Source: an uncultured Gammaproteobacteria bacterium (lineage in GTDB: Bacteria; Pseudomonadota; Gammaproteobacteria; CAMYKB01). From it: 37,949 bases of DNA. The notes under the pieces were generated by a model. The model was not told the DNA's origin. It ran no database searches and worked only from the letters and a program-made list of their open reading frames with translations. This document shows, piece by piece, positions 4,143 through 16,863 of the stretch; the stretch's first letter is position 1; each line of letters starts with the position of its first letter. The stretch lies in assembly GCA_947258875.1 (NCBI GenBank), contig CAMYKB010000016.1, positions 1-37,949 of the forward strand, written 5' to 3'. The position numbers were made by a program, and so were the translations under genes.

Positions 4143-5864
4143 TCATCTAAGCAATAGATATAACAACACCAGGTTTACGACAAACAATAGTTGAGCAGTC
4201 ACTTTCCAGAATAGAAGAGGATTTCTTTCGATAAGGGGGGCAATTTCCTTACTCATGTAGGATGGATTGGGGTGCTCCAAATCATAAATGAACTCGGAAA
4301 TTTCCCCGTACCTCCGATCAGGCTCAATTTTCGTCGCCTTCTCCAAAGCGCCATCCATCCAGATAGGGATCATCGGATTGAAATGCAAACTTGATTGATA
4401 TTTAATTTTGAGTAATTTACGAGGGTTGATGTCTCGCCCTAGTCGTTCCTCATAAGGTAGCTTTCCAGTTAACATTTCATACGCTATCACCCCAAGGCTG
4501 AATAAGTCTGAACGGACCGCGCCACTCTTTCCTGACAAATATTCAGGCGCCATATAATTCTTGGTCCCCAACATATTGATCCGTTCGACCGGACTGGCTG
4601 TTTCCGCTATACCAGCAATACGCACCGACCCAAAATCAATGATTTTCACAACACCGGTATTATCGATCAGGACATTTTCAGGTTTTAGGTCCTGATGGAT
4701 CATATCCAGGCGATGTAGAGCACGCAAACCCGACTCAATTTGCTTGATGATGTTGAGTACAACCGGTAACTCGGGTTTAGGATGTGTATCCATCCATTCT
4801 CTCAAGGTTTTACCTTTGATAAGTTCCATTACGGTATAAAGAAAGTGGCGCTCACGGGCACACTCAATAAGCTTAACCACATGTGGACTTTGCACCCGCC
4901 TGCCTACCCAGCTTTCGTGCAGGAATCTTTCAATATATGCAGGATCATCATTGTAATTATCAGATGGCGTCTTGATTACCACCTTCATACGAGTTTCCAT
5001 ATCCTCGGCGAGATACAGTTCACTGGTGGTACTGGCATGTAATTCCTCGATAATTTGATAGCCATCGAGCTTCATGCCTGATTCAAGCGGAGGAGGAAAT
5101 GGCAGCGCAGTCAATTCGCGAAACACTTCATCCGCTGCTTGTTCAGGCAAGGTTTCAATGTAAACGATCTGGCATGTCAGGTTATCAGGACTGTCATTGG
5201 CTGCTGCCGCGTCGACTATCCTCTGAGCGGCCATATCGAGATTATCAGAATGTTGTTCGATGAAATTGTGGATCTCCCGGTCTTTCAGATACTCATGCAC
5301 GCCATCAGTAGTAAAAACATAATAATCATTTTCTTTAAGGCTACGACTGCTGTAGTCAATATCAAGATGCAGATCCACACCCATGGCACGTGACAGATAA
5401 CGTCTATCACCACGCATTTGCGCATGATGATCGCGAGTCAACGGTTCCAACTGTCCGTCGCGAAGACGATAGATACGTGAATCACCTACGTGAAATACAT
5501 GCGTGCGGGTTGACTTGAAAACCAGCGCGCTAAGCGTTGACACCATTGCATGAGTCGGGTCCGGGTTTCTCACACCGATTCCGTAGAGCCAACTATTGAG
5601 CGCCGACAATACTTTCTGACAGGATTTCTTTACTGACCAGGAATCTGGCGTGCTGTAATAGTCTGACAAAAAACCTTTGACACAGGCTTCGCTGGCTTCC
5701 TTACCGGCACTACTACTGCTCACGCCATCCGCAATGACCGCAACTATACCTTTGGACTCAAGCAGAGTGGCTTGCGGGGTCAAAACACCATAGGAATCCT
5801 GATTCTCGGCCTTGGCGCCAGCTATCGAGTATTGGCCGCTTTTAATAGTCAGAGTATTAGACAT
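4143..5864 (-). CDS. PP2C-type phosphatase fused to a Ser/Thr protein kinase, C-terminal membrane anchor
   Basis: The protein has 573 residues from the ATG at 5864 (the frame opens 7 codons earlier). Residues 1-240 are a PP2C phosphatase with metal-binding aspartates in NQDSYG (D23), VIADGVSS (D46), HVGDSRIY (D128), TTDGVHEY (D187) and DNLT (D227). Residues 265-530 are a Hanks-type kinase with VVIK (K298), the C-helix Glu (about E317), HQDLKPEN (D392), DFG (410-412) and APE (439-441). The glycine-rich loop is degenerate, and HRD reads HQD. A single hydrophobic segment near 552-572 should anchor it with both domains in the cytoplasm. It lies 72 bp downstream of narK on the same strand. P. aeruginosa has a kinase gene (PA1782) between nirB and nasA, so the association recurs; the substrate is unknown. 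Confidence 0.88.
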   Translation of the reverse strand: MSNTLTIKSGQYSIAGAKAENQDSYGVLTPQATLLESKGIVAVIADGVSSSSAGKEASEACVKGFLSDYYSTPDSWSVKKSCQKVLSALNSWLYGIGVRNPDPTHAMVSTLSALVFKSTRTHVFHVGDSRIYRLRDGQLEPLTRDHHAQMRGDRRYLSRAMGVDLHLDIDYSSRSLKENDYYVFTTDGVHEYLKDREIHNFIEQHSDNLDMAAQRIVDAAAANDSPDNLTCQIVYIETLPEQAADEVFRELTALPFPPPLESGMKLDGYQIIEELHASTTSELYLAEDMETRMKVVIKTPSDNYNDDPAYIERFLHESWVGRRVQSPHVVKLIECARERHFLYTVMELIKGKTLREWMDTHPKPELPVVLNIIKQIESGLRALHRLDMIHQDLKPENVLIDNTGVVKIIDFGSVRIAGIAETASPVERINMLGTKNYMAPEYLSGKSGAVRSDLFSLGVIAYEMLTGKLPYEERLGRDINPRKLLKIKYQSSLHFNPMIPIWMDGALEKATKIEPDRRYGEISEFIYDLEHPNPSYMSKEIAPLIERNPLLFWKVTAQLLFVVNLVLLYLLLR

Positions 5865-5880
5865 GGCCTGGAATATAACA

Positions 5881-5903
5881 GGCACCCCACTGTGCGGGGT
5901 GCC
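5881..5903 (-). terminator. Stem-loop between narK and the kinase gene
   Basis: A perfect 8-bp inverted repeat (GGCACCCC / GGGGTGCC) with a 7-base loop lies 33 bases after the narK stop and 16 bases before the kinase ATG. On the minus strand it is followed by the moderately T-rich TGTTATATTCC. It could be a leaky terminator or a processing or stability element that sets the kinase:transporter ratio. Confidence 0.55.
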
Positions 5904-5936: not shown

Positions 5937-7406
5937 TTACGTGACGTCAATCATCTCGACAGTACCATCAGGCAAGACTTCAGCCATATGGCCTGCGGGT
6001 TCTTCCATAAACAAGGCTACGGCACCCAGTGTGACAACTGCCGCAGCCGCGATCACCAGGAAAAACACCTGTGGCGTCACAAAGGAGAACACCGTCAAAA
6101 ACGTTACTGCACCAACATTGCCATAAGCACCCGCCATACCAGCGACCTGTCCGGTCATGCGGCGTTTCACCAGAGGCACCATAGCAAACACAGCGCCTTC
6201 GCCCGCCTGCACGAAGAACGAACACATCATCGTTACGATCACTGCCAGTGGAATCCACCAGCCCGAACCGATCTGGCTCATCAGGATGTAGCCCACGATC
6301 AAGCCAGCTAAAAGGAACATTAATGTCTTTTTACGCCCGAACTTGTCGCTAAACAGACCACCACCTGGGCGCGCCACCAGGTTCATAAAAGCATAACCTG
6401 CAGCCAGCATGCCCGCCAGCACCTGGGTTAAACCAAAGGTATCCATGAAAAACCCGGGTAGCATGGAAACCACCGCCAACTCGGAGCCAAAAGTGACCAT
6501 GTAAGCCAGGTCGAGAACCGCCACCTGCTTAAACTTATAACGATGAATTTCCGGCACCTCTACAGTGAAGACATGCTTATTGATGCGATAAATATGACTG
6601 AATTGATAGATAAGAACAGCCGCCAAAAGAGCATAGATTGCTAATTCAGCCGTGGCCCCCAACATGCCCAGATTTGCGGGGCCGAGTTTCCAGTTAAGCA
6701 CCGCTAATGCAGCGTACATGGGCAGGTTCATAATGGCATACAACAGGAAGTCTCCTTTGCTAGTGACTTCCATCGCGCCACTCTTTTTCGGCTTGAAATA
6801 AGTCGAACCCTTGGGTGTATTGTGAACGCTGAAATAATAAATAACTGCGTAAACCAGCGAAATTACACCAGTCGTGGCCATGGCATAGCGCCAGCCATTA
6901 TCACCACCATACATAAGCGCTAGCGTAGGAAGAGTAAATGCCGCTGCAGCCGAACCGAAATTACCCCAACCTCCATAGATACCCTCAGCCACACCAACCT
7001 GCTTTGCCGGGAACCATTCGCCAATCATGCGGATACCGATGACGAAGCCTGCGCCTACAAAACCCATCAGAAAGCGCATAATGGCCATCATCTCGAAACT
7101 ATTAGACATCGCAAACAGGAAACACAACACACTGGAGAAACCCAGCAGCAATGAATACAGGATCTTGGGACCAAACCTGTCGACCAGCATACCGATCACG
7201 ATGCGGGCTGGTATGGTCAGTGCTACATTGAGGATAAGTAATGTCTTCCATTCCTGGGGAGTCAGGTCAAAAGCGGCCATCACCGATTCTTTAAAGGGCG
7301 CCAGGTTGAACCACATGACAAAACTAAGGAAGAAGGCAAACCAGGTAAAATGCAGGACGCGTATATTGTCTTTGAACGACAACACATTCATCTTCATTGC
7401 GGACAT
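5937..7406 (-). CDS. narK: MFS nitrate/nitrite transporter (NarK/NasA family)
   Basis: This inner-membrane transporter of the nitrate-nitrite porter family has 489 residues. Both family signatures are visible: [16 protein letters not shown] in the first half and [12 protein letters not shown] in the second. The MFS A-motif reads [10 protein letters not shown]. It is longer than compact NarK proteins because of a central region with extra hydrophobic stretches between the two six-helix halves. The ATG at 7406 is preceded by GAGG (7414-7417). It is divergent from nirB, has its own sigma-54/NtrC promoter and is followed by the kinase gene. The assimilatory context suggests nitrate import; nitrite export is possible for the family. 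Confidence 0.9.
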
Positions 7407-7985: not shown

Positions 7986-10421
7986 ATGAAAGAACAACTG
8001 GTCTTGATCGGTAATGGCATGGCGGGCGTACGTACACTGGAAGAAATCCTCAAGCTGGCACCGGACAAATACGAAATCACCGTATTCGGAGAAGAACCCT
8101 ATGGTAATTACAACCGCATCATGCTCTCGCCGGTGCTGGCCTCTGAAAAGACCATTGACGAGATCATGCTCAATGACGAGCAATGGTACGTCGATAATGG
8201 CATTACCTTGCACAAGGGTAAGAAAGTGGTCGATATCGACCGCGCCAAACGCATCGTCAAGGCCGAGGACGGCACCGAGGCCCCTTATGACCGTTTGATC
8301 ATCGCAACTGGATCCTCCCCCTTCATCATCCCGGTGCCCGGCGCCGATCTGGAGGGTGTGATTTCTTTCCGCGACATACATGATGTCGATGCCATGCTGG
8401 CTACCGCGGATCAATATAAGCATGCTGTCGTCATTGGCGGCGGCCTGCTTGGCCTGGAAGCCGCCAATGGCCTGATGAAACAGGGCATGCAAGTCACCGT
8501 CGTCCACTTGATGGACACCCTGATGGAACGGCAACTCGACAAGGCCGCTGCAGGCCTGCTCAAACGCTCACTGGAAGAACGCGGCATGACATTCCTGATG
8601 GAACATCAGACCGAGGCGATTATCGGCGATAACCGTGTACACAGTGTGCGCTTTAAGGACGCCCCGGAAATTGAAGCCGACCTGGTGGTCATGGCCGTCG
8701 GAATCCGCCCCAACATCGAACTGGCAAAAAAAGTCGGCCTACATTGTGAACGCGGTATTGTCGTCAACGACACCATGCAGACCTTCGACCCCCGGGTTTA
8801 TTCAATCGGTGAGTGCGTACAGCACCGCGGCGACACCTACGGCCTGGTCGCACCGCTATTCGAGCAGGCCAAGGTCTGCGCGAATCATCTTGCCGAAATT
8901 GGTATTGCGCGTTATCAGGGCTCTGTCACTTCCACTAAGCTGAAAGTGACGGGGATCGATCTGTTCTCGGCGGGCGATTTTACCGGTGATGAAAACACCG
9001 AGGAACTGGTGTTCCAGGATGCCTCCCGCGGCGTGTATCGAAAACTGATCGTACAGGATGACCGCATCAAGGGTACTGTCATGTACGGTGACACCATCGA
9101 CGGCGCATGGTATTTCGATCTGATGCGCGATGAAACTGATATTTCGGATATGCGCCAAAACCTGTTGTTCGGTCAGGCGCATTTGGGTGATTCGGGACAT
9201 GGCGAGGAAAACCGTGTGGTCACCATGTCTGATACGGCAGAAATCTGCGGCTGTAACGGTGTCTGTAAGGGCGAAATCGTCCAGGCTATCACTGACAAAA
9301 AACTCTTCACACTAGAAGATGTGCGCGCCCACACCAAGGCCTCCAGCTCCTGCGGTTCCTGCACTGGCCTGGTGGAAGCATTATTAGCCCATACAGTCGG
9401 TGGCAACTATTCCACCGCACCACATCTCAAACCTATGTGTGGCTGCACCGAACATCCCCATGACGAAGTGCGTGCTACCATTCAGGAGCAGGAACTGAAA
9501 TCTATACGCGCGGTTATGGATTTTATGGAATGGAAATCACCCGATGGCTGCCCCAAGTGCCGCCCTGCGCTGAATTATTACCTGCTCTGTGCCTGGCCAG
9601 GCGAATACCAGGACGATAACCAGTCACGCTTCATCAATGAACGTGCACACGCCAATATTCAGAAAGACGGCAGCTATTCGGTGGTACCGCGCATGTGGGG
9701 TGGTGAAACCACGCCGACCGAACTCAAGGCCATTGCGGAAATCGCCGAAAAGTACGAGGTACCCACCCTGCACGTCACGGGCGGACAACGCATCGACATG
9801 CTGGGTGTGAAAAAGGAAGATCTGCCCAGTATGTGGGGCGACCTGTCGAAAGCGGGTTTCGTCTCCGGCCATGCCTATGGCAAAGCAATCCGTACGGTAA
9901 AGACCTGCGTGGGTTCAGATTGGTGCCGGTTCGGCACCCAGAACTCCACGCAAATGGGTATCGACCTGGAAAAGATGACCTGGGGTGCCTGGACACCGCA
10001 TAAATACAAGATGGCAGTATCCGGCTGTCCGCGTAACTGTGCCGAAGCCACCATCAAGGACTTTGGTGTGGTTGCGGTAGATTCCGGCTGGGAACTGCAT
10101 GTCGGCGGTAATGGTGGCGTAAAGGTACGCGCCACCGACTTTCTATGCCATGTCAGCACGACTGAGGAAGTGAAAGAATACAGCGCTGCCTTCCTGCAAC
10201 TGTATCGCGAAGACGCCCATTACCTGGAGCGCACCGCACCATGGATTGAACGCGTTGGGCTTTCCTATGTCAAGGAACGTATCGTCGACGATGAAAACGG
10301 GCGTAAACTATTAGCTCAACGTTTTCTGTACTCGCAGAAATTTTCACAAATCGACCCCTGGAGCGAACGCGCCTCAGGCGTTGATAAACATGAGTTTATC
10401 CCGCTTAAACAAGTCAGCTAA
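7986..10421 (+). CDS. nirB: Assimilatory NAD(P)H nitrite reductase, large subunit NirB
   Basis: NirB reduces nitrite to ammonium in the cytoplasm with six electrons from NAD(P)H. From the ATG at 7986 it has 811 residues. The N-terminal pyridine-nucleotide oxidoreductase part has an FAD motif (GNGMAG, 9-14) and an NAD motif (GGGLLGLEAANG near 151). BFD-type [2Fe-2S] cysteines follow (C421, C423, C456, C459). The C-terminal sulfite/nitrite reductase half ends with the siroheme-[4Fe-4S] ligands C641-x5-C647 and C681-x3-C685. The frame is open upstream to 7893, but family alignment (MKEQLVLIGNGMAG) and GGAGG at 7971 fix the start. nirD follows after 53 bp. Confidence 0.96.
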   Translation: MKEQLVLIGNGMAGVRTLEEILKLAPDKYEITVFGEEPYGNYNRIMLSPVLASEKTIDEIMLNDEQWYVDNGITLHKGKKVVDIDRAKRIVKAEDGTEAPYDRLIIATGSSPFIIPVPGADLEGVISFRDIHDVDAMLATADQYKHAVVIGGGLLGLEAANGLMKQGMQVTVVHLMDTLMERQLDKAAAGLLKRSLEERGMTFLMEHQTEAIIGDNRVHSVRFKDAPEIEADLVVMAVGIRPNIELAKKVGLHCERGIVVNDTMQTFDPRVYSIGECVQHRGDTYGLVAPLFEQAKVCANHLAEIGIARYQGSVTSTKLKVTGIDLFSAGDFTGDENTEELVFQDASRGVYRKLIVQDDRIKGTVMYGDTIDGAWYFDLMRDETDISDMRQNLLFGQAHLGDSGHGEENRVVTMSDTAEICGCNGVCKGEIVQAITDKKLFTLEDVRAHTKASSSCGSCTGLVEALLAHTVGGNYSTAPHLKPMCGCTEHPHDEVRATIQEQELKSIRAVMDFMEWKSPDGCPKCRPALNYYLLCAWPGEYQDDNQSRFINERAHANIQKDGSYSVVPRMWGGETTPTELKAIAEIAEKYEVPTLHVTGGQRIDMLGVKKEDLPSMWGDLSKAGFVSGHAYGKAIRTVKTCVGSDWCRFGTQNSTQMGIDLEKMTWGAWTPHKYKMAVSGCPRNCAEATIKDFGVVAVDSGWELHVGGNGGVKVRATDFLCHVSTTEEVKEYSAAFLQLYREDAHYLERTAPWIERVGLSYVKERIVDDENGRKLLAQRFLYSQKFSQIDPWSERASGVDKHEFIPLKQVS

Positions 10422-10474: not shown

Positions 10475-10834
10475 ATGCAGGCTGTATCCAAAATGACAGA
10501 ACAAGAGTGGATTGATGTAGGCACGCTGAATGACATCCCCCAATTGGGCGCCCGTGTAGTAAAAACAACCGAAGGTAACATTGCTGTATTCAGAACTGCA
10601 GAAGATGAAATCTTTGCAGTTCGCGACAAATGTCCGCATAAAGGCGGGCCGCTATCGCAGGGCATCGTCCACGGCAAGCGTGTTGCCTGCCCGCTACATG
10701 ACTGGAAGATTCATCTTGACTCTGGCGAGGCTGTGGCACCGGATGAAGGCTGCGCAGCAACCTATCCTGTGCGTATCGAAGGCAACAATATCTTACTTTC
10801 ATTACTGCCCAATGAAGGTTGTCCCAACAAATAA
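10475..10834 (+). CDS. nirD: Nitrite reductase small subunit NirD (Rieske type)
   Basis: NirD is the 119-residue partner of NirB. It has a Rieske fold with an intact pair of ligand motifs, C-P-H in KCPHKGGPL and C-P-L-H in ACPLHDWKI, so a [2Fe-2S] cluster can be expected. Many enterobacterial NirD proteins lack these ligands. The start is supported by AGGAG about 9 bases upstream. nasA begins 11 bases after the stop. Confidence 0.94.
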   Translation: MQAVSKMTEQEWIDVGTLNDIPQLGARVVKTTEGNIAVFRTAEDEIFAVRDKCPHKGGPLSQGIVHGKRVACPLHDWKIHLDSGEAVAPDEGCAATYPVRIEGNNILLSLLPNEGCPNK

Positions 10835-10845
10835 GAGAAGATTGA

Positions 10846-13026
10846 ATGTTATTCGGACGCGACAAAAAAAACCCGATCAAGATTGCTGACAAAGGTGTCA
10901 TCGAATGGAAGTACACCACATGCGGCTATTGCTCGACGGGTTGTTCTATAGAAGTCGGCCTGAACGACAAGGGTGAGGCCGTGGCCTCCCGCGGCGTTGG
11001 CGGCGCCGATGTCAATCGTGGCAAGCTTTGCCTTAAAGGTATTTTTGAGCATGAACTGTTCCGACTACCTGGGCGTGGCAAAACACCGTTAATGCGCGAT
11101 AAACACTATGATCCCTTTCGCAAGACCGGCTGGGATGAAGCCCTCGATAAGGTGGCCTCGGAAATCAAACGTATCCAGGCACAGCATGGGCGTGACAGCT
11201 TTGCCATTGTCTCTACTGGTCAGATTATGACCGAAGAATTCTATACACTCGGCAAGCTCGCGCGCGGCGTGATAGGTACTAACAATTACGACGGCAATAC
11301 TACATTATGTATGGCCTCTGCCGTCTCAGGATACAAACGCTCGTTTGGTTCCGATGGCCCACCGGGTTGCTATGATGATTTCGAGCACACCGAGTGTCTG
11401 CTGGCCATCGGATCCAACCTGCCCGAGCAGCATCCGATTATCTTCTGGCGTCTGCGGCTGGCATTAGAAAAGCGCAAGTTTCCGATTATCGTCATCGATC
11501 CACGCGTCACTATGTTCGCACAGATGGCAGACATCCATTTGCCGATTACACCCGGCACCGATCTGGTACTACTGAATAGTCTGGCACATGTCATTCTCGA
11601 AGAAGGCCTTGAAGACCGCGCATATATCGAGGCCCACACCAGCAACTACGATGAATTTTCCAAACTGGTGAAACAATACGACCCGTTGACAGCATCACGC
11701 ATTTGCGGCATCGACGAGGATACCATCCGTAATGTCGCCCGCACCTACGCCAAAGCTGGCGCAGCCATGACCATCTGGACCATGGGGATCAACCAAAGCA
11801 CTCACGGTTCAGACGGCGTTGTGGGTATCAACAACCTAAACCTGATTACCGGCAATATCGGTAAACCTGGCGGCACCAGCCTATCGATCACGGGCCAGAG
11901 CAACGCCATGGGTACCCGTGAATGGTCATCCTGCTCGGGATTGCCGGGCTATCGTGCACTGGAGAGCGAACAGGATCGCAGCGACATCGCACAATTCTGG
12001 GGTATTGATCCTGAATTCTTCCCCAAGAAGCGCGGTCTCTTCCAGACCGACATCTTCCCCGCCATCGAGGCTGGCCGCATCAAGGGACTGTGGCTCATCG
12101 CCACTAATCCGATGACCTCGATGACCAATACGTCACGCATTCGCAAAATTCTCGAAAAACTTGATTTTCTGGTGGTACAGGATGCCTATGAAGACGTAGA
12201 GACCAATGAGTACAGCCATGTGTATTTACCCGCAGCTGTATGGGCTGAAAAGGAAGGCTGCTTCACCAATACTGAACGGCGCGTTAATCTGACACGTAAC
12301 GTCATTAAGCCGAATGCCGATTCCAAATCTGATTTGTGGATCTTTAGCCAGATGGCAAAACGCTTTGAGCAGGGACAGAAGATGCATTTCCCTGAAACAG
12401 CAGAAGCGGTGTTCGAGGAACTGCGCACACTTTCCAAAGGGCGCATGCTGGATTACTCCGGCATGTCCTATGACAAGATCGAACAGCAGCGCGGCATCCA
12501 GTGGCCCTGCACTGATGGAAACGAAACCGGCACACCCCGATTATACAGCGACGGAAAGTTCCAACATGCCGACGGCAAGGCCAAACTCATTCCACTGCCA
12601 TTCGTGGACAACAATGAAAGACCAGACAAGGAATACCCGTTCTGGCTTAACAGTGGCCGCGTGGTGGAGCACTTTCACACCCGAACACGCACCGGCAAGG
12701 TGGGCAACATCAATAAATTCAGCCCAACACCCTATATGGAGATGAATCCGGATGCAGCTAGGGAACTTGGAATAGAACACGGTAATTACGCCCGCCTCAC
12801 CTCACGCCGTGGCGATGCTGTAGTTATGGTGCAACTGACTCAACGCGTTCCGCCTGATATGGTGTTTATTCCCTTTCATTATCACGAGTGCGTCAACCGA
12901 CTGGCCTTGGGACTATTGGATCCTCATTCTCGGCAGCCCGCATTCAAACAATGCGCCGTACATATCGCACCGGCAACAGACCAGCAATCCGCCGCAATCC
13001 GAAACAAAGCGGCACGCGCATATTAG
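10846..13026 (+). CDS. nasA: Assimilatory nitrate reductase catalytic subunit (molybdopterin, [4Fe-4S])
   Basis: This enzyme reduces nitrate to nitrite. It has 726 residues in the order [4Fe-4S] domain (C26, C29, C33, C62 in CGYCSTGC...LCLKG), bis-MGD catalytic domain and the C-terminal molydopterin-dinucleotide-binding domain with NSGRVVEHFHTRTRTGK. C155 in NTTLCMASAV is the expected Mo ligand of Nap/Nas enzymes. There is no Tat signal, so it is cytoplasmic. The length matches the cyanobacterial NarB type; the extra C-terminal BFD-like domain of enterobacterial NasA is absent, so it needs a separate electron donor. The next gene, 11 bp downstream, is the likely donor. It is the third gene of the nirBD-nasA operon. 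Confidence 0.93.
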   Translation: MLFGRDKKNPIKIADKGVIEWKYTTCGYCSTGCSIEVGLNDKGEAVASRGVGGADVNRGKLCLKGIFEHELFRLPGRGKTPLMRDKHYDPFRKTGWDEALDKVASEIKRIQAQHGRDSFAIVSTGQIMTEEFYTLGKLARGVIGTNNYDGNTTLCMASAVSGYKRSFGSDGPPGCYDDFEHTECLLAIGSNLPEQHPIIFWRLRLALEKRKFPIIVIDPRVTMFAQMADIHLPITPGTDLVLLNSLAHVILEEGLEDRAYIEAHTSNYDEFSKLVKQYDPLTASRICGIDEDTIRNVARTYAKAGAAMTIWTMGINQSTHGSDGVVGINNLNLITGNIGKPGGTSLSITGQSNAMGTREWSSCSGLPGYRALESEQDRSDIAQFWGIDPEFFPKKRGLFQTDIFPAIEAGRIKGLWLIATNPMTSMTNTSRIRKILEKLDFLVVQDAYEDVETNEYSHVYLPAAVWAEKEGCFTNTERRVNLTRNVIKPNADSKSDLWIFSQMAKRFEQGQKMHFPETAEAVFEELRTLSKGRMLDYSGMSYDKIEQQRGIQWPCTDGNETGTPRLYSDGKFQHADGKAKLIPLPFVDNNERPDKEYPFWLNSGRVVEHFHTRTRTGKVGNINKFSPTPYMEMNPDAARELGIEHGNYARLTSRRGDAVVMVQLTQRVPPDMVFIPFHYHECVNRLALGLLDPHSRQPAFKQCAVHIAPATDQQSAAIRNKAARAY

Positions 13027-13037
13027 TGGATGAAATA

Positions 13038-14876
13038 ATGTTTAAAGTACGACAAGACGAACCCGATTACGCCTTCATCCCTGAAGTTGAAGTGCCTGAT
13101 GTCAATCGCTACGGCAAAAAAATTCAACTCGTCGATCAACATGATGACCTGGCTGGGAAGAGCCTGAACATCAATGGTGATCCAAGCATTAGCGATAGCC
13201 CTAACCGCTACAAACAACACGGTTTTTATTTCAACGCGGACAATTGCATATCCTGTCATGCATGCGAATCAGCATGTAGCGAGAAAAACGATCTGCCTCC
13301 TCATCTTGCCTTCCGTTCCGTCGGCTATGTCGAGGGTGGAACCTATCCCAACTATGCACGCCTCAATATCTCCATGGCCTGCAATCATTGTGATGACCCA
13401 GTCTGCCTCAAGGGTTGCCCGACACGTGCGTATACTAAGTTCGCCGAGTATGGTGCGGTACTGCAGGACCCAGACATCTGCTTTGGTTGCGGTTACTGCA
13501 CTTGGGTATGCCCCTACAATGCACCCCAACTCGATACCACCAAGGGCCACGTGCAAAAATGCAACATGTGTGTGGATCGGCTCGAGGTCGGCCTTAAACC
13601 AGCTTGCGCATCCGCCTGTCTGGCGGGCGCACTGGATTTCGGTGTGATTGAAACCACTCCGGAAAACCGTGACCAGTTAAAGACCCAAATCCCCGGTTTT
13701 CCTGATCCGGAGATTAGCCATCCCAACATCCGCTTCCAGCAAACCAAGAGTCTGCCTCGTGAGATGACACGCCCCGACAACATACCTGTACGTTATGAGC
13801 GTGATGAACAAGGTCAGAATGGATTCAATACCAAAGTTCGTGGCAATGGCGGCAAACCGGAATGGAATCTAGGAAAACTGCGTTCACGCGAAGACCCGCT
13901 GGTCATCTTTACATTAATCACGCAAACCGTGGTCGGCGCTTTCCTGATCCTGTATTTAGGCCCAAAATTCGGTCTTGGTGAACTCACTGTGGGTGCGCAC
14001 CCCGTGCTATACCCATCCTTATTACTTGCGTTGCTCGGCATTCAGACCTTCGCCCTGGCCCTGTCGACCATGCATCTGGGCAAGCCGCATCGCTTCTACC
14101 GTGCCTTCAACAACCTTCGCTATTCGCCCGTAAGCCGTGAAATCGCAGGCATCGCCGTTTTTTACAATTTGCTGGGGGTGTATACCTTACTCTCGGCATT
14201 ACCTGTGCTGTTCGGCTGGCAGCCCTCCTCTCTTATTAACGGTTTGCTATCCATCGTAGGCTGGTGCGCGGTTATCGCCGGGCCAGTTGCACTGTACTTC
14301 ATGTACCGTATCTATCGCATCAAGGCGCGGCCTTTCTGGAATCATTGGCAAGTACTCACAGCCTTCTATGGCAACATGCTCGCGCTTGGCGGCATGATCG
14401 TGTTGCTGGTGTATGGTGCTGTATTAGTGTCTCAAACACACTCCATCACCCATCTGGGCAGCTCCCTAAGCGCGCTTATCGCTACAGGTCTGTTGATCGA
14501 AATGATTGGACTCTTTTTTCATGCACGCGACCTTGAGCATCAGGGTGGCGAAGCCGCGGCCTCCCACTACAGGCAGCGAACGACCTATGGCAAGACCTAT
14601 ATCGCACGCAATATCGGTCTGGCTTTGACCCTGGCTGCGACTCTCCTGCTGGCTGTAAGCGGACTCGATGGCATTGCCGGTTATACTGGCTGGGTTTTGG
14701 CTGGTATGCTGATGACTGCAGTCGCTGTGGTGGGACGTTCACTGTTCTACGTGCTGGTCATCCCCACCACTATGCCCGGCGCGTTCTTCTGGCATAACCC
14801 TGGTTTCCAGGAACATGCCCGCGAAACCGGGTTAGCGGAAATGGCTCAGGTCGGTGTAGTCACAGACAAGCACTGA
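13038..14876 (+). CDS. DmsB-like four-cluster ferredoxin fused to a DmsC-like quinol-oxidising membrane anchor
   Basis: The protein has 612 residues from the ATG at 13038; upstream in-frame codons lie inside nasA. The N-terminal part (about 60-205) is DmsB-like with four cysteine sets for [4Fe-4S] clusters: CISCHACESAC (70-80), CNHCDDPVCLKGC (115-127), CFGCGYCTWVC (148-158) and CNMC...CASAC (175-194). After a linker (205-285), about eight membrane segments form a DmsC-type anchor, including STMHLGKPHRFYRAFNNLRY. DmsC oxidises menaquinol and passes electrons through DmsB to a molybdoenzyme. There is no Tat signal, so the clusters should face the cytoplasm where NasA is. The inferred role is quinol:nitrate electron transfer. 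A DMSO-type reductase is less likely because the adjacent catalytic subunit is Nas-like. Confidence 0.88.
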   Translation: MFKVRQDEPDYAFIPEVEVPDVNRYGKKIQLVDQHDDLAGKSLNINGDPSISDSPNRYKQHGFYFNADNCISCHACESACSEKNDLPPHLAFRSVGYVEGGTYPNYARLNISMACNHCDDPVCLKGCPTRAYTKFAEYGAVLQDPDICFGCGYCTWVCPYNAPQLDTTKGHVQKCNMCVDRLEVGLKPACASACLAGALDFGVIETTPENRDQLKTQIPGFPDPEISHPNIRFQQTKSLPREMTRPDNIPVRYERDEQGQNGFNTKVRGNGGKPEWNLGKLRSREDPLVIFTLITQTVVGAFLILYLGPKFGLGELTVGAHPVLYPSLLLALLGIQTFALALSTMHLGKPHRFYRAFNNLRYSPVSREIAGIAVFYNLLGVYTLLSALPVLFGWQPSSLINGLLSIVGWCAVIAGPVALYFMYRIYRIKARPFWNHWQVLTAFYGNMLALGGMIVLLVYGAVLVSQTHSITHLGSSLSALIATGLLIEMIGLFFHARDLEHQGGEAAASHYRQRTTYGKTYIARNIGLALTLAATLLLAVSGLDGIAGYTGWVLAGMLMTAVAVVGRSLFYVLVIPTTMPGAFFWHNPGFQEHARETGLAEMAQVGVVTDKH

Positions 14877-14883
14877 AATGTTA

Positions 14884-14909
14884 CACATGGATTGCATGTG
14901 ACAATCCAT
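14884..14909 (+). other. Overlapping alternative stem-loops after the DmsBC fusion gene
   Basis: Two mutually exclusive hairpins share bases: CACATG / CATGTG (14884-14900) and ATGGATTG / CAATCCAT (14887-14909). No T-tract follows. They could be a stability element between genes; the evidence is only the repeats themselves. Confidence 0.3.
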
Positions 14910-14976
14910 TCATAAGCGGTATGATGATTGGGAGCTCTCCCATCATCGCGTCGTCCATGAAGATCCAGCCACCGCT

Positions 14977-15324
14977 ATGGCCAGGCAAGCTGACAAGATT
15001 CTTAATGACCTGGAACGCGCCGTGTTCCAGTCAGTTTATCGTTCGCGCACCCAGCGCCTGCGACGTATTACCGCCATACAGATACTGTTACTCAAACACA
15101 TCACAGGTGGCCTGCTCTTTTTATGGCCGCTATATGTCATATTACTCGCAGTACTGTTAACGCCAGTCACATCGCGCCACCTGATTTATTTGCTTGCATT
15201 GTTACCCGGCTTGCTCGTTTGGTTTTATATCCATATTTCAGGCGCGCGCGAGGATTATCGTCAGCACGTACGCAACCATATCCTCGGAAAAGGCTTCATT
15301 AAAGACTTATTCAGAAAATCATAG
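14977..15324 (+). CDS. Small two-helix membrane protein, unknown function
   Basis: A 115-residue protein with a basic N-terminus (residues 1-35), two hydrophobic segments (about 39-61 and 67-86) and a basic, His- and Arg-containing tail. I do not recognise a family. It starts 100 bp after the DmsBC fusion on the same strand and may be the last gene of the nir-nas operon. The arrangement of a charged helix, a helical hairpin and a charged tail would suit an accessory or assembly subunit of a membrane complex, but that is inference. No strong SD precedes the ATG. Confidence 0.6.
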   Translation: MARQADKILNDLERAVFQSVYRSRTQRLRRITAIQILLLKHITGGLLFLWPLYVILLAVLLTPVTSRHLIYLLALLPGLLVWFYIHISGAREDYRQHVRNHILGKGFIKDLFRKS

Positions 15325-15474: not shown

Positions 15475-16863
15475 ATGCATATTGAATTTCATGGTGCAGC
15501 CCGTGAGGTTACCGGTAGCGCCCATCTTATAGAATGTAACGGTTATCGCATCCTGCTGGACTGCGGCCTGATCCAGGGCGGCCGCAAGGATGAGGCACGC
15601 AATCGCGAACCCTTCCCTTTTGACCCACAAGATTTGCATGCGGTGGTCCTGAGTCATTCCCACATTGATCATTCAGGGCGTTTACCCTTGTTAGTTAAAC
15701 AAGGATTCACGGGCAAGATTTATACGCAACGCGCCTGCCGCGATCTGTGCCGCATCATGCTCAACGATGCTGCCTATATTAATGAACATGAAACGGAGTG
15801 GGAAAACCGCAAACGTCTGCGTAAAGGATTACCGCTTCTGGAGCCACTATACTCTGCGGCCGACGTCAAAACAGCGCTGCAGCGCTTTAAAGCCATTGAT
15901 TACAATAGTAACACTACAGTAGCACCCGGTATCAGAATCTGCCTGAATGATGCAGGCCACATCCTAGGATCATCTATCGTTGAAGTTTGGCTGGAAGAAA
16001 ACGGCCAGCAACGCAAACTCGTCTTCAGCGGTGACCTTGGAGATACCGGTGCACCGATCCTACGTGATCCTGCCGTCATCGTCGAAGCCGATACAGTTAT
16101 CCTGGAAAGCACTTACGGTGACCGCCTGCACCGGCTGCGCGAGCAAACAATGTCGGAGATCAAACAGATCCTGCAAGAAACGCTACGCTCGCGCGGCAAT
16201 ATCCTGATACCTGCCTTCGCGGTGGGCCGCACTCAGGAGTTGCTGTACCTGTTCGCCAAACACCGTGACGAACTTGAACTGGATCGCTGGCAGATCTTTC
16301 TCGACAGCCCGTTAGCCATCCAGGCAACCGAAATCTATGTACGCCATGCCGAGTTATACGACAAGGAAGCGGCCGCGCTATGGCACAGGAACAACCGGAG
16401 TGGGTTATTGCCCAATCTCACCTTCACACGCACACCCAAACAGTCCATGAATCTGAACAAGGTTCACTCCGGTGCCATGATTATTGCCGGCAGCGGTATG
16501 TGCACGGGGGGGCGTATCAAACATCACCTGAAACATAACATCTGGCGCAAGGATTGCCATGTCATTATTCCTGGTTTTCAGGCACGCGGCACCACGGGAC
16601 GAGCCCTGGTAGATGGTGCGGGCTTTATCCGCTTGTGGGGTGAAACCATCCGTGTGGCCGCAAACATCCACACCGTTGGCGGCCTCTCTGCGCACGCCGA
16701 CCAGCATGGCCTCTGTAACTGGTATGCGAATTTCAGGAATACCCCACCAGTTATTCTGGTGCATGGCGAAACAGCCAGTATTGACACCCTGGCAACAAAG
16801 ATGCGAAATGACTTCAGTACGCAAATCACCGTACCGGTATTGGCTCAGCGAATTGAGTTATGA
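15475..16863 (+). CDS. Beta-CASP metallo-beta-lactamase (RNA-processing exonuclease-like)
   Basis: This 462-residue protein belongs to the Ysh1/CPSF-73-like bacterial branch. The MBL motif HSHIDH (61-66) supplies zinc ligands, followed by DAGHILGS, FSGDLGD and ESTYGDR. The beta-CASP insert includes PAFAVGRTQE and the GSGMCTGGR loop, and a late GLSAHAD supplies the final His. Such enzymes cut or degrade RNA, though many bacterial members have no tested activity. It is 150 bp downstream of the nas cluster on the same strand and is probably transcribed separately. Its tail is 12 bp from the convergent histidine kinase gene. Confidence 0.85.
   Translation: MHIEFHGAAREVTGSAHLIECNGYRILLDCGLIQGGRKDEARNREPFPFDPQDLHAVVLSHSHIDHSGRLPLLVKQGFTGKIYTQRACRDLCRIMLNDAAYINEHETEWENRKRLRKGLPLLEPLYSAADVKTALQRFKAIDYNSNTTVAPGIRICLNDAGHILGSSIVEVWLEENGQQRKLVFSGDLGDTGAPILRDPAVIVEADTVILESTYGDRLHRLREQTMSEIKQILQETLRSRGNILIPAFAVGRTQELLYLFAKHRDELELDRWQIFLDSPLAIQATEIYVRHAELYDKEAAALWHRNNRSGLLPNLTFTRTPKQSMNLNKVHSGAMIIAGSGMCTGGRIKHHLKHNIWRKDCHVIIPGFQARGTTGRALVDGAGFIRLWGETIRVAANIHTVGGLSAHADQHGLCNWYANFRNTPPVILVHGETASIDTLATKMRNDFSTQITVPVLAQRIEL

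Follow-up and report, generated by a model that had tools for sequence, protein, structure and literature searches.

A nasA gene paired with a DmsB-DmsC fusion gene suggests a quinol-linked, membrane-anchored assimilatory nitrate reductase in Gammaproteobacteria

The window analysed here is the whole stretch of 37,949 nucleotides of contig CAMYKB010000016.1 (GCA_947258875.1), from an uncultured Gammaproteobacteria bacterium. It carries an operon of nirB, nirD, nasA, a gene in which DmsB-like and DmsC-like sequences are fused, and a gene for a small two-helix protein, with narK in the divergent orientation (Table 1). The fusion gene starts 11 bp after the nasA stop codon, and the conservation of its first methionine among homologues supports this start. 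The nirB, nirD and narK genes score above their NCBIfam cut-offs. The nirB frame opens at a GTG codon, however, a later ATG is the more probable start, as inferred from the profile match. Two further genes of the window were noted. One, beside narK, encodes a PP2C phosphatase domain fused to a Ser/Thr kinase domain and a C-terminal helix, and the other encodes a beta-CASP metallo-beta-lactamase-fold RNase whose best NCBIfam match is the type VII CRISPR Cas14 nuclease model (382 bits, cut-off 800).

Table 1. Coordinates of the genes and domains discussed. L093, L157 and L159 are the labels of other stretches that were compared; L093 belongs to the same genome as the window (contig C36).
Sequence	Position	Strand	Feature	Product
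Window	4143-5885	-	PP2C phosphatase-Ser/Thr kinase gene	
Window	5937-7406	-	narK	narK-family nitrate/nitrite transporter
Window	7986-10421	+	nirB (ORF opens at GTG 7893; likely start ATG 7986)	NADH-dependent assimilatory nitrite reductase large subunit
Window	10475-10834	+	nirD	nitrite reductase small subunit
Window	10846-13026	+	nasA	nasA-type catalytic subunit, 726 aa
Window	10846-10875		N-terminal extension of NasA	MLFGRxxKNP
Window	13038-14876	+	DmsB-DmsC fusion gene	612 aa
Window	13212-13652	+	DmsB-like domain of the fusion	residues 59-205, four [4Fe-4S] cluster motifs
Window	13890-14762	+	DmsC/NrfD-like membrane domain of the fusion	residues 285-575, eight helices, putative quinol site
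Window	14977-15324	+	two-helix protein gene	membrane protein, 115 aa
Window	15475-16863	+	beta-CASP RNase gene	
L093	2261-6896		soeABC-like operon	966-aa Mo subunit, four-cluster subunit, DmsC-type anchor
L157	9145-9492		DsrC-like protein gene	
L157	9499-12189		canonical BFD-type nasA	
L159	8595-11282		canonical BFD-type nasA	

The Pfam domains Molybdop_Fe4S4, Molybdopterin and Molydop_binding are found in NasA, but Fer2_BFD is not, whereas the same search finds Fer2_BFD in canonical NasA proteins from related loci. The cysteine residues of the FS0 cluster are C26, C29, C33 and C62. Neither NasA nor the fusion begins with a twin-arginine or other signal peptide, as judged by reading the sequences without a predictor. 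The fusion matches DmsB (TIGR02951, E 2e-46, below its curated cut-off) over residues 60-205 and DmsC (PF04976, E 1.4e-19, above the gathering score) over residues 285-573. The 16 cluster cysteines, C70/73/76/80, C115/118/123/127, C148/151/154/158 and C175/178/190/194, are invariant in 28 homologues, so the count of four clusters is right. The two-helix protein has no Pfam or NCBIfam match.

The gene pair is far beyond chance. A scan of genome contigs with the fusion found 537 related stretches, and the best 80 were retrieved, nearly all from gamma- and betaproteobacterial MAGs. Homologues of the same length occur in hundreds of genomes, therefore a fusion made by a sequencing or assembly error was rejected. 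All 73 loci with more than 700 bp of upstream sequence have the same NasA, 67-88% identical to that of the window, immediately upstream; in two of these, overlapping frames hid the gene from automated scoring but it is present. In a separate collection of 369 gammaproteobacterial genomes drawn evenly, the fusion profile hit 59. The NasA profile separated a high-scoring partner class (over 1000 bits, plus fragments at contig ends) from canonical NasA (up to about 620 bits), and 58 of the 59 fusion genomes have the partner NasA (Fisher p 7e-63). The relatedness of the genomes makes this p-value an overstatement, but the pattern is not in doubt. Of 60 fusion copies, 57 lie directly downstream of the partner NasA on the same strand. 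Two of the exceptions are at contig ends, and in the third, in the genome labelled G409, nirBD-nasA and the fusion with the two-helix gene lie in the interior of different contigs, so the parts are kept even when unlinked. Only one genome has a NasA without a fusion that is not explained by the adjacent contig end, and there the NasA is itself split over two contigs. In a phylum-wide sample 6 of 398 genomes had the fusion, and a plasmid search gave only separate dmsB and dmsC genes. A chance neighbourhood or a shuffling anchor gene was rejected on this linkage. One result that would have refuted the original prediction, a fusion gene that travels without nasA, was thus looked for and did not emerge.

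The partner NasA proteins form one clade (100/100) apart from canonical NasA (100/100). Both lie inside the group with NapA and FdhF and away from SoeA and DmsA, however, the order inside this group is unresolved. The Mo-ligand region reads TLCMASAVSGYKRSFG, in which Cys155 is followed by Met156 (CMASAV), as in NasA (CMSSAV/CMASAV) and NapA (CMASAV), and the R358-E359 region also aligns with NasA and NapA and not with FdhF. No NCBIfam equivalog cut-off is reached, so this is not a described subfamily there. The highest score is for Fdh-alpha (594.7 versus 666.25 required). NasC gives 542.3 of 1100 bits and haloarchaeal NasA 470.9 of 1000, while the DmsA model TIGR02166 gives 143 of 778 and NarG 41 of 1084. 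The best PDB match by sequence is a CO2 reductase/FDH. These matches leave open a catalytic subunit that acts on formate, sulfite or another oxyanion, with neighbouring genes that are only partly informative, but this is very unlikely. FdhF has Sec-His followed by GPSV, and SoeA lacks the CMASAV motif. In addition, nirB, nirD and often narK flank the pair in most gammaproteobacterial loci, and NirB-type proteins also occur near it in Betaproteobacteria. Nitrate is by far the likeliest substrate. Partner NasA proteins also share an almost invariant N-terminal extension before the first cluster motif that is absent from canonical NasA and is a candidate docking element for the fusion.

Alignment with hhalign gives the fusion a probability of 99.9% to DmsB and 98.0% to DmsC. 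The quinone-site residues of DmsC listed by Calisto and Pereira (PMC8076601), S62, H65, S82 and E87, align with S343, H346, S363 and E368, all invariant in 28 fusions. The predicted membrane domain has eight helices with pLDDT mostly near or above 90, but the Fe-S half of the model is of low confidence and was not used, and the same is true of the NasA model. Foldseek alone gave no match below E 0.001 for the fusion model. A second aligner matched the membrane domain to ActC of alternative complex III (Z 24.6, rmsd 3.0, 289 residues) and to PsrC with bound menaquinone (Z 18.7, rmsd 4.1, 245 residues). Cytochrome bd also scores 17-19, so the fold match is to a class of quinol-binding helical bundles. 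It is possible that NasA takes electrons from ferredoxin or NADH as usual and that the fusion only anchors it or serves another partner, as ferredoxin- and flavodoxin-linked enzymes of the NarB type probably also lack BFD domains. This is thought to be very improbable because a mere anchor would not need the invariant cluster cysteines and quinone-site residues, and because linkage to one NasA clade is almost absolute, also where the genes are unlinked.

The orientation of the anchor was examined by the positive-inside rule. In 71 fusions the three inter-helix loops on the Fe-S side hold on average 9.3 Lys/Arg (7-12) and the four opposite loops 0.56 (0-3), which puts the Fe-S side in the cytoplasm. 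E. coli DmsC (3 versus 8) and YnfH (2 versus 11), whose Fe-S partners are periplasmic, show the opposite bias. A DmsABC-like periplasmic enzyme was rejected on this charge bias and on the absence of a signal in the sequence as read. The window's own genome encodes a soeABC-like operon, and its SoeC shows the same bias as the fusion (17 versus 1). SoeABC is the literature precedent for an inverted DmsC-type anchor (PMC8076601), a precedent that the original prediction missed.

The two-helix protein is found in 14 of the 369 genomes, 13 of which have the fusion. The fourteenth lies at a contig end. The protein occurs in 33 of 72 loci and stays with the fusion in G409. The original prediction that it could be a further subunit is therefore only partly supported; it is a specific but non-essential, accessory partner, and an obligatory subunit was rejected. 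A subset of fusions has a charged C-terminal extension of about 45 residues, seemingly in loci without the two-helix gene.

Comparison with known systems shows where this pair differs. Like NasA, NasC and NarB, the catalytic subunit appears to be a cytoplasmic Mo-bisPGD enzyme with a Cys ligand in the CM[AS]SAV context, encoded with nirBD and narK. Known members use NAD(P)H, ferredoxin or flavodoxin, whereas this clade lacks the BFD domain of proteobacterial NasA, is only 34-39% identical to it, and comes with a DmsB-DmsC fusion in nearly every case. SoeABC, a cytoplasmic sulfite:quinone oxidoreductase, also has a Mo subunit, a four-cluster subunit and a DmsC-type anchor facing the cytoplasm, but SoeA is a different catalytic family, the subunits are separate, and the reaction runs the other way, into the quinone pool. 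DmsABC and other DMSO-reductase-type complexes share the DmsB-like four-cluster ferredoxin and the DmsC-like eight-helix quinol-binding anchor. However, DmsAB are exported by Tat to the periplasmic side, while here no signal was seen, the charge bias of the anchor is inverted, B and C are fused, and the catalytic subunit is of Nas type. NarGHI carries out quinol-linked nitrate reduction with the active site in the cytoplasm, as is inferred here, but its catalytic family is different and quinol is oxidised on the periplasmic side by cytochrome b NarI, conserving energy; there is no NarI-type cytochrome b here.

Wells et al. (PMC7331816) state that none of the members of the clade with NasA/NasC, AioA and NapA is associated with the four-cluster or membrane-anchor subunits. 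The pair described here is a widespread exception. No such case was found in the 2023 update (PMC10100899), and the review of NrfD-like proteins (PMC8076601) lists no nitrate reductase of Nas type. Papers on Ferrovum, Gallionellaceae and Zetaproteobacteria report nasA with a nitrite reductase, with no mention of an anchor found. No description of a quinol- or anchor-linked Nas was found in the openly licensed literature, to which the search was limited, so a prior description cannot be excluded.

Taken together, the evidence supports the original prediction that the nasA product and the fusion work on the cytoplasmic side, the reverse of DmsABC, and link nitrate reduction to the quinone pool. 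We consider it likely that they form a two-polypeptide quinol:nitrate oxidoreductase serving assimilation, although complex formation, quinol as donor, the direction, the assimilatory role and the energetics are inferred without biochemical or genetic data. In this model two electrons pass through four [4Fe-4S] clusters and the FS0 cluster of NasA to the Mo-bisPGD, where nitrate from NarK becomes nitrite, and NirBD then reduces nitrite to ammonium with NADH. Protons would be released and consumed on the same (N) side, so the reaction should be electroneutral and driven only by the roughly 0.3 V between quinol and nitrate.

A quinol:nitrate reductase whose main role is dissimilatory, as an electron sink or in ammonification through NirBD, is a less likely alternative. 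Quinol linkage is typical of respiration, and NirBD can serve ammonification. A canonical BFD-type NasA of about 890 aa is encoded next to the complex in a sizeable minority of operons, including those of L157 and L159 and 9 of 50 loci in one set, and could already cover assimilation. In L157 a gene for a DsrC-like protein (PF04358, E 8.5e-35) sits between the two-helix gene and the canonical nasA. On the other hand, an electroneutral reaction, as inferred from the cytoplasmic quinol side, conserves no energy. In 34 of 59 fusion genomes this is the only Nas/Nap/FDH-type protein seen at E 1e-100, although at most three candidates were scored per genome and NarG was searched only in the window's genome. 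That genome (98.5% complete) has no NarG and no second Nas/Nap/FDH-type enzyme, so this is probably its only nitrate reductase.

RuBisCO is present in 53 of 59 fusion genomes, against 81 of 157 other genomes with a Nas/Nap/FDH-type protein (p 1e-7, relatedness not corrected). This fits, but does not prove, the idea that autotrophs, for which NADH must be made by reverse electron transport, save NADH by feeding nitrate reduction from quinol. Nitrate assimilation is taught as depending on NAD(P)H, ferredoxin or flavodoxin. It is somewhat more likely than not that the pair, present in about 16% of sampled gammaproteobacterial genomes and in hundreds of mostly CO2-fixing bacterial species, represents a further, widespread way to power this process, in which the first two electrons are drawn from the quinone pool so that autotrophs need less NADH. 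Where the complex lies beside a BFD-type NasA, the cell would be able to choose the donor.
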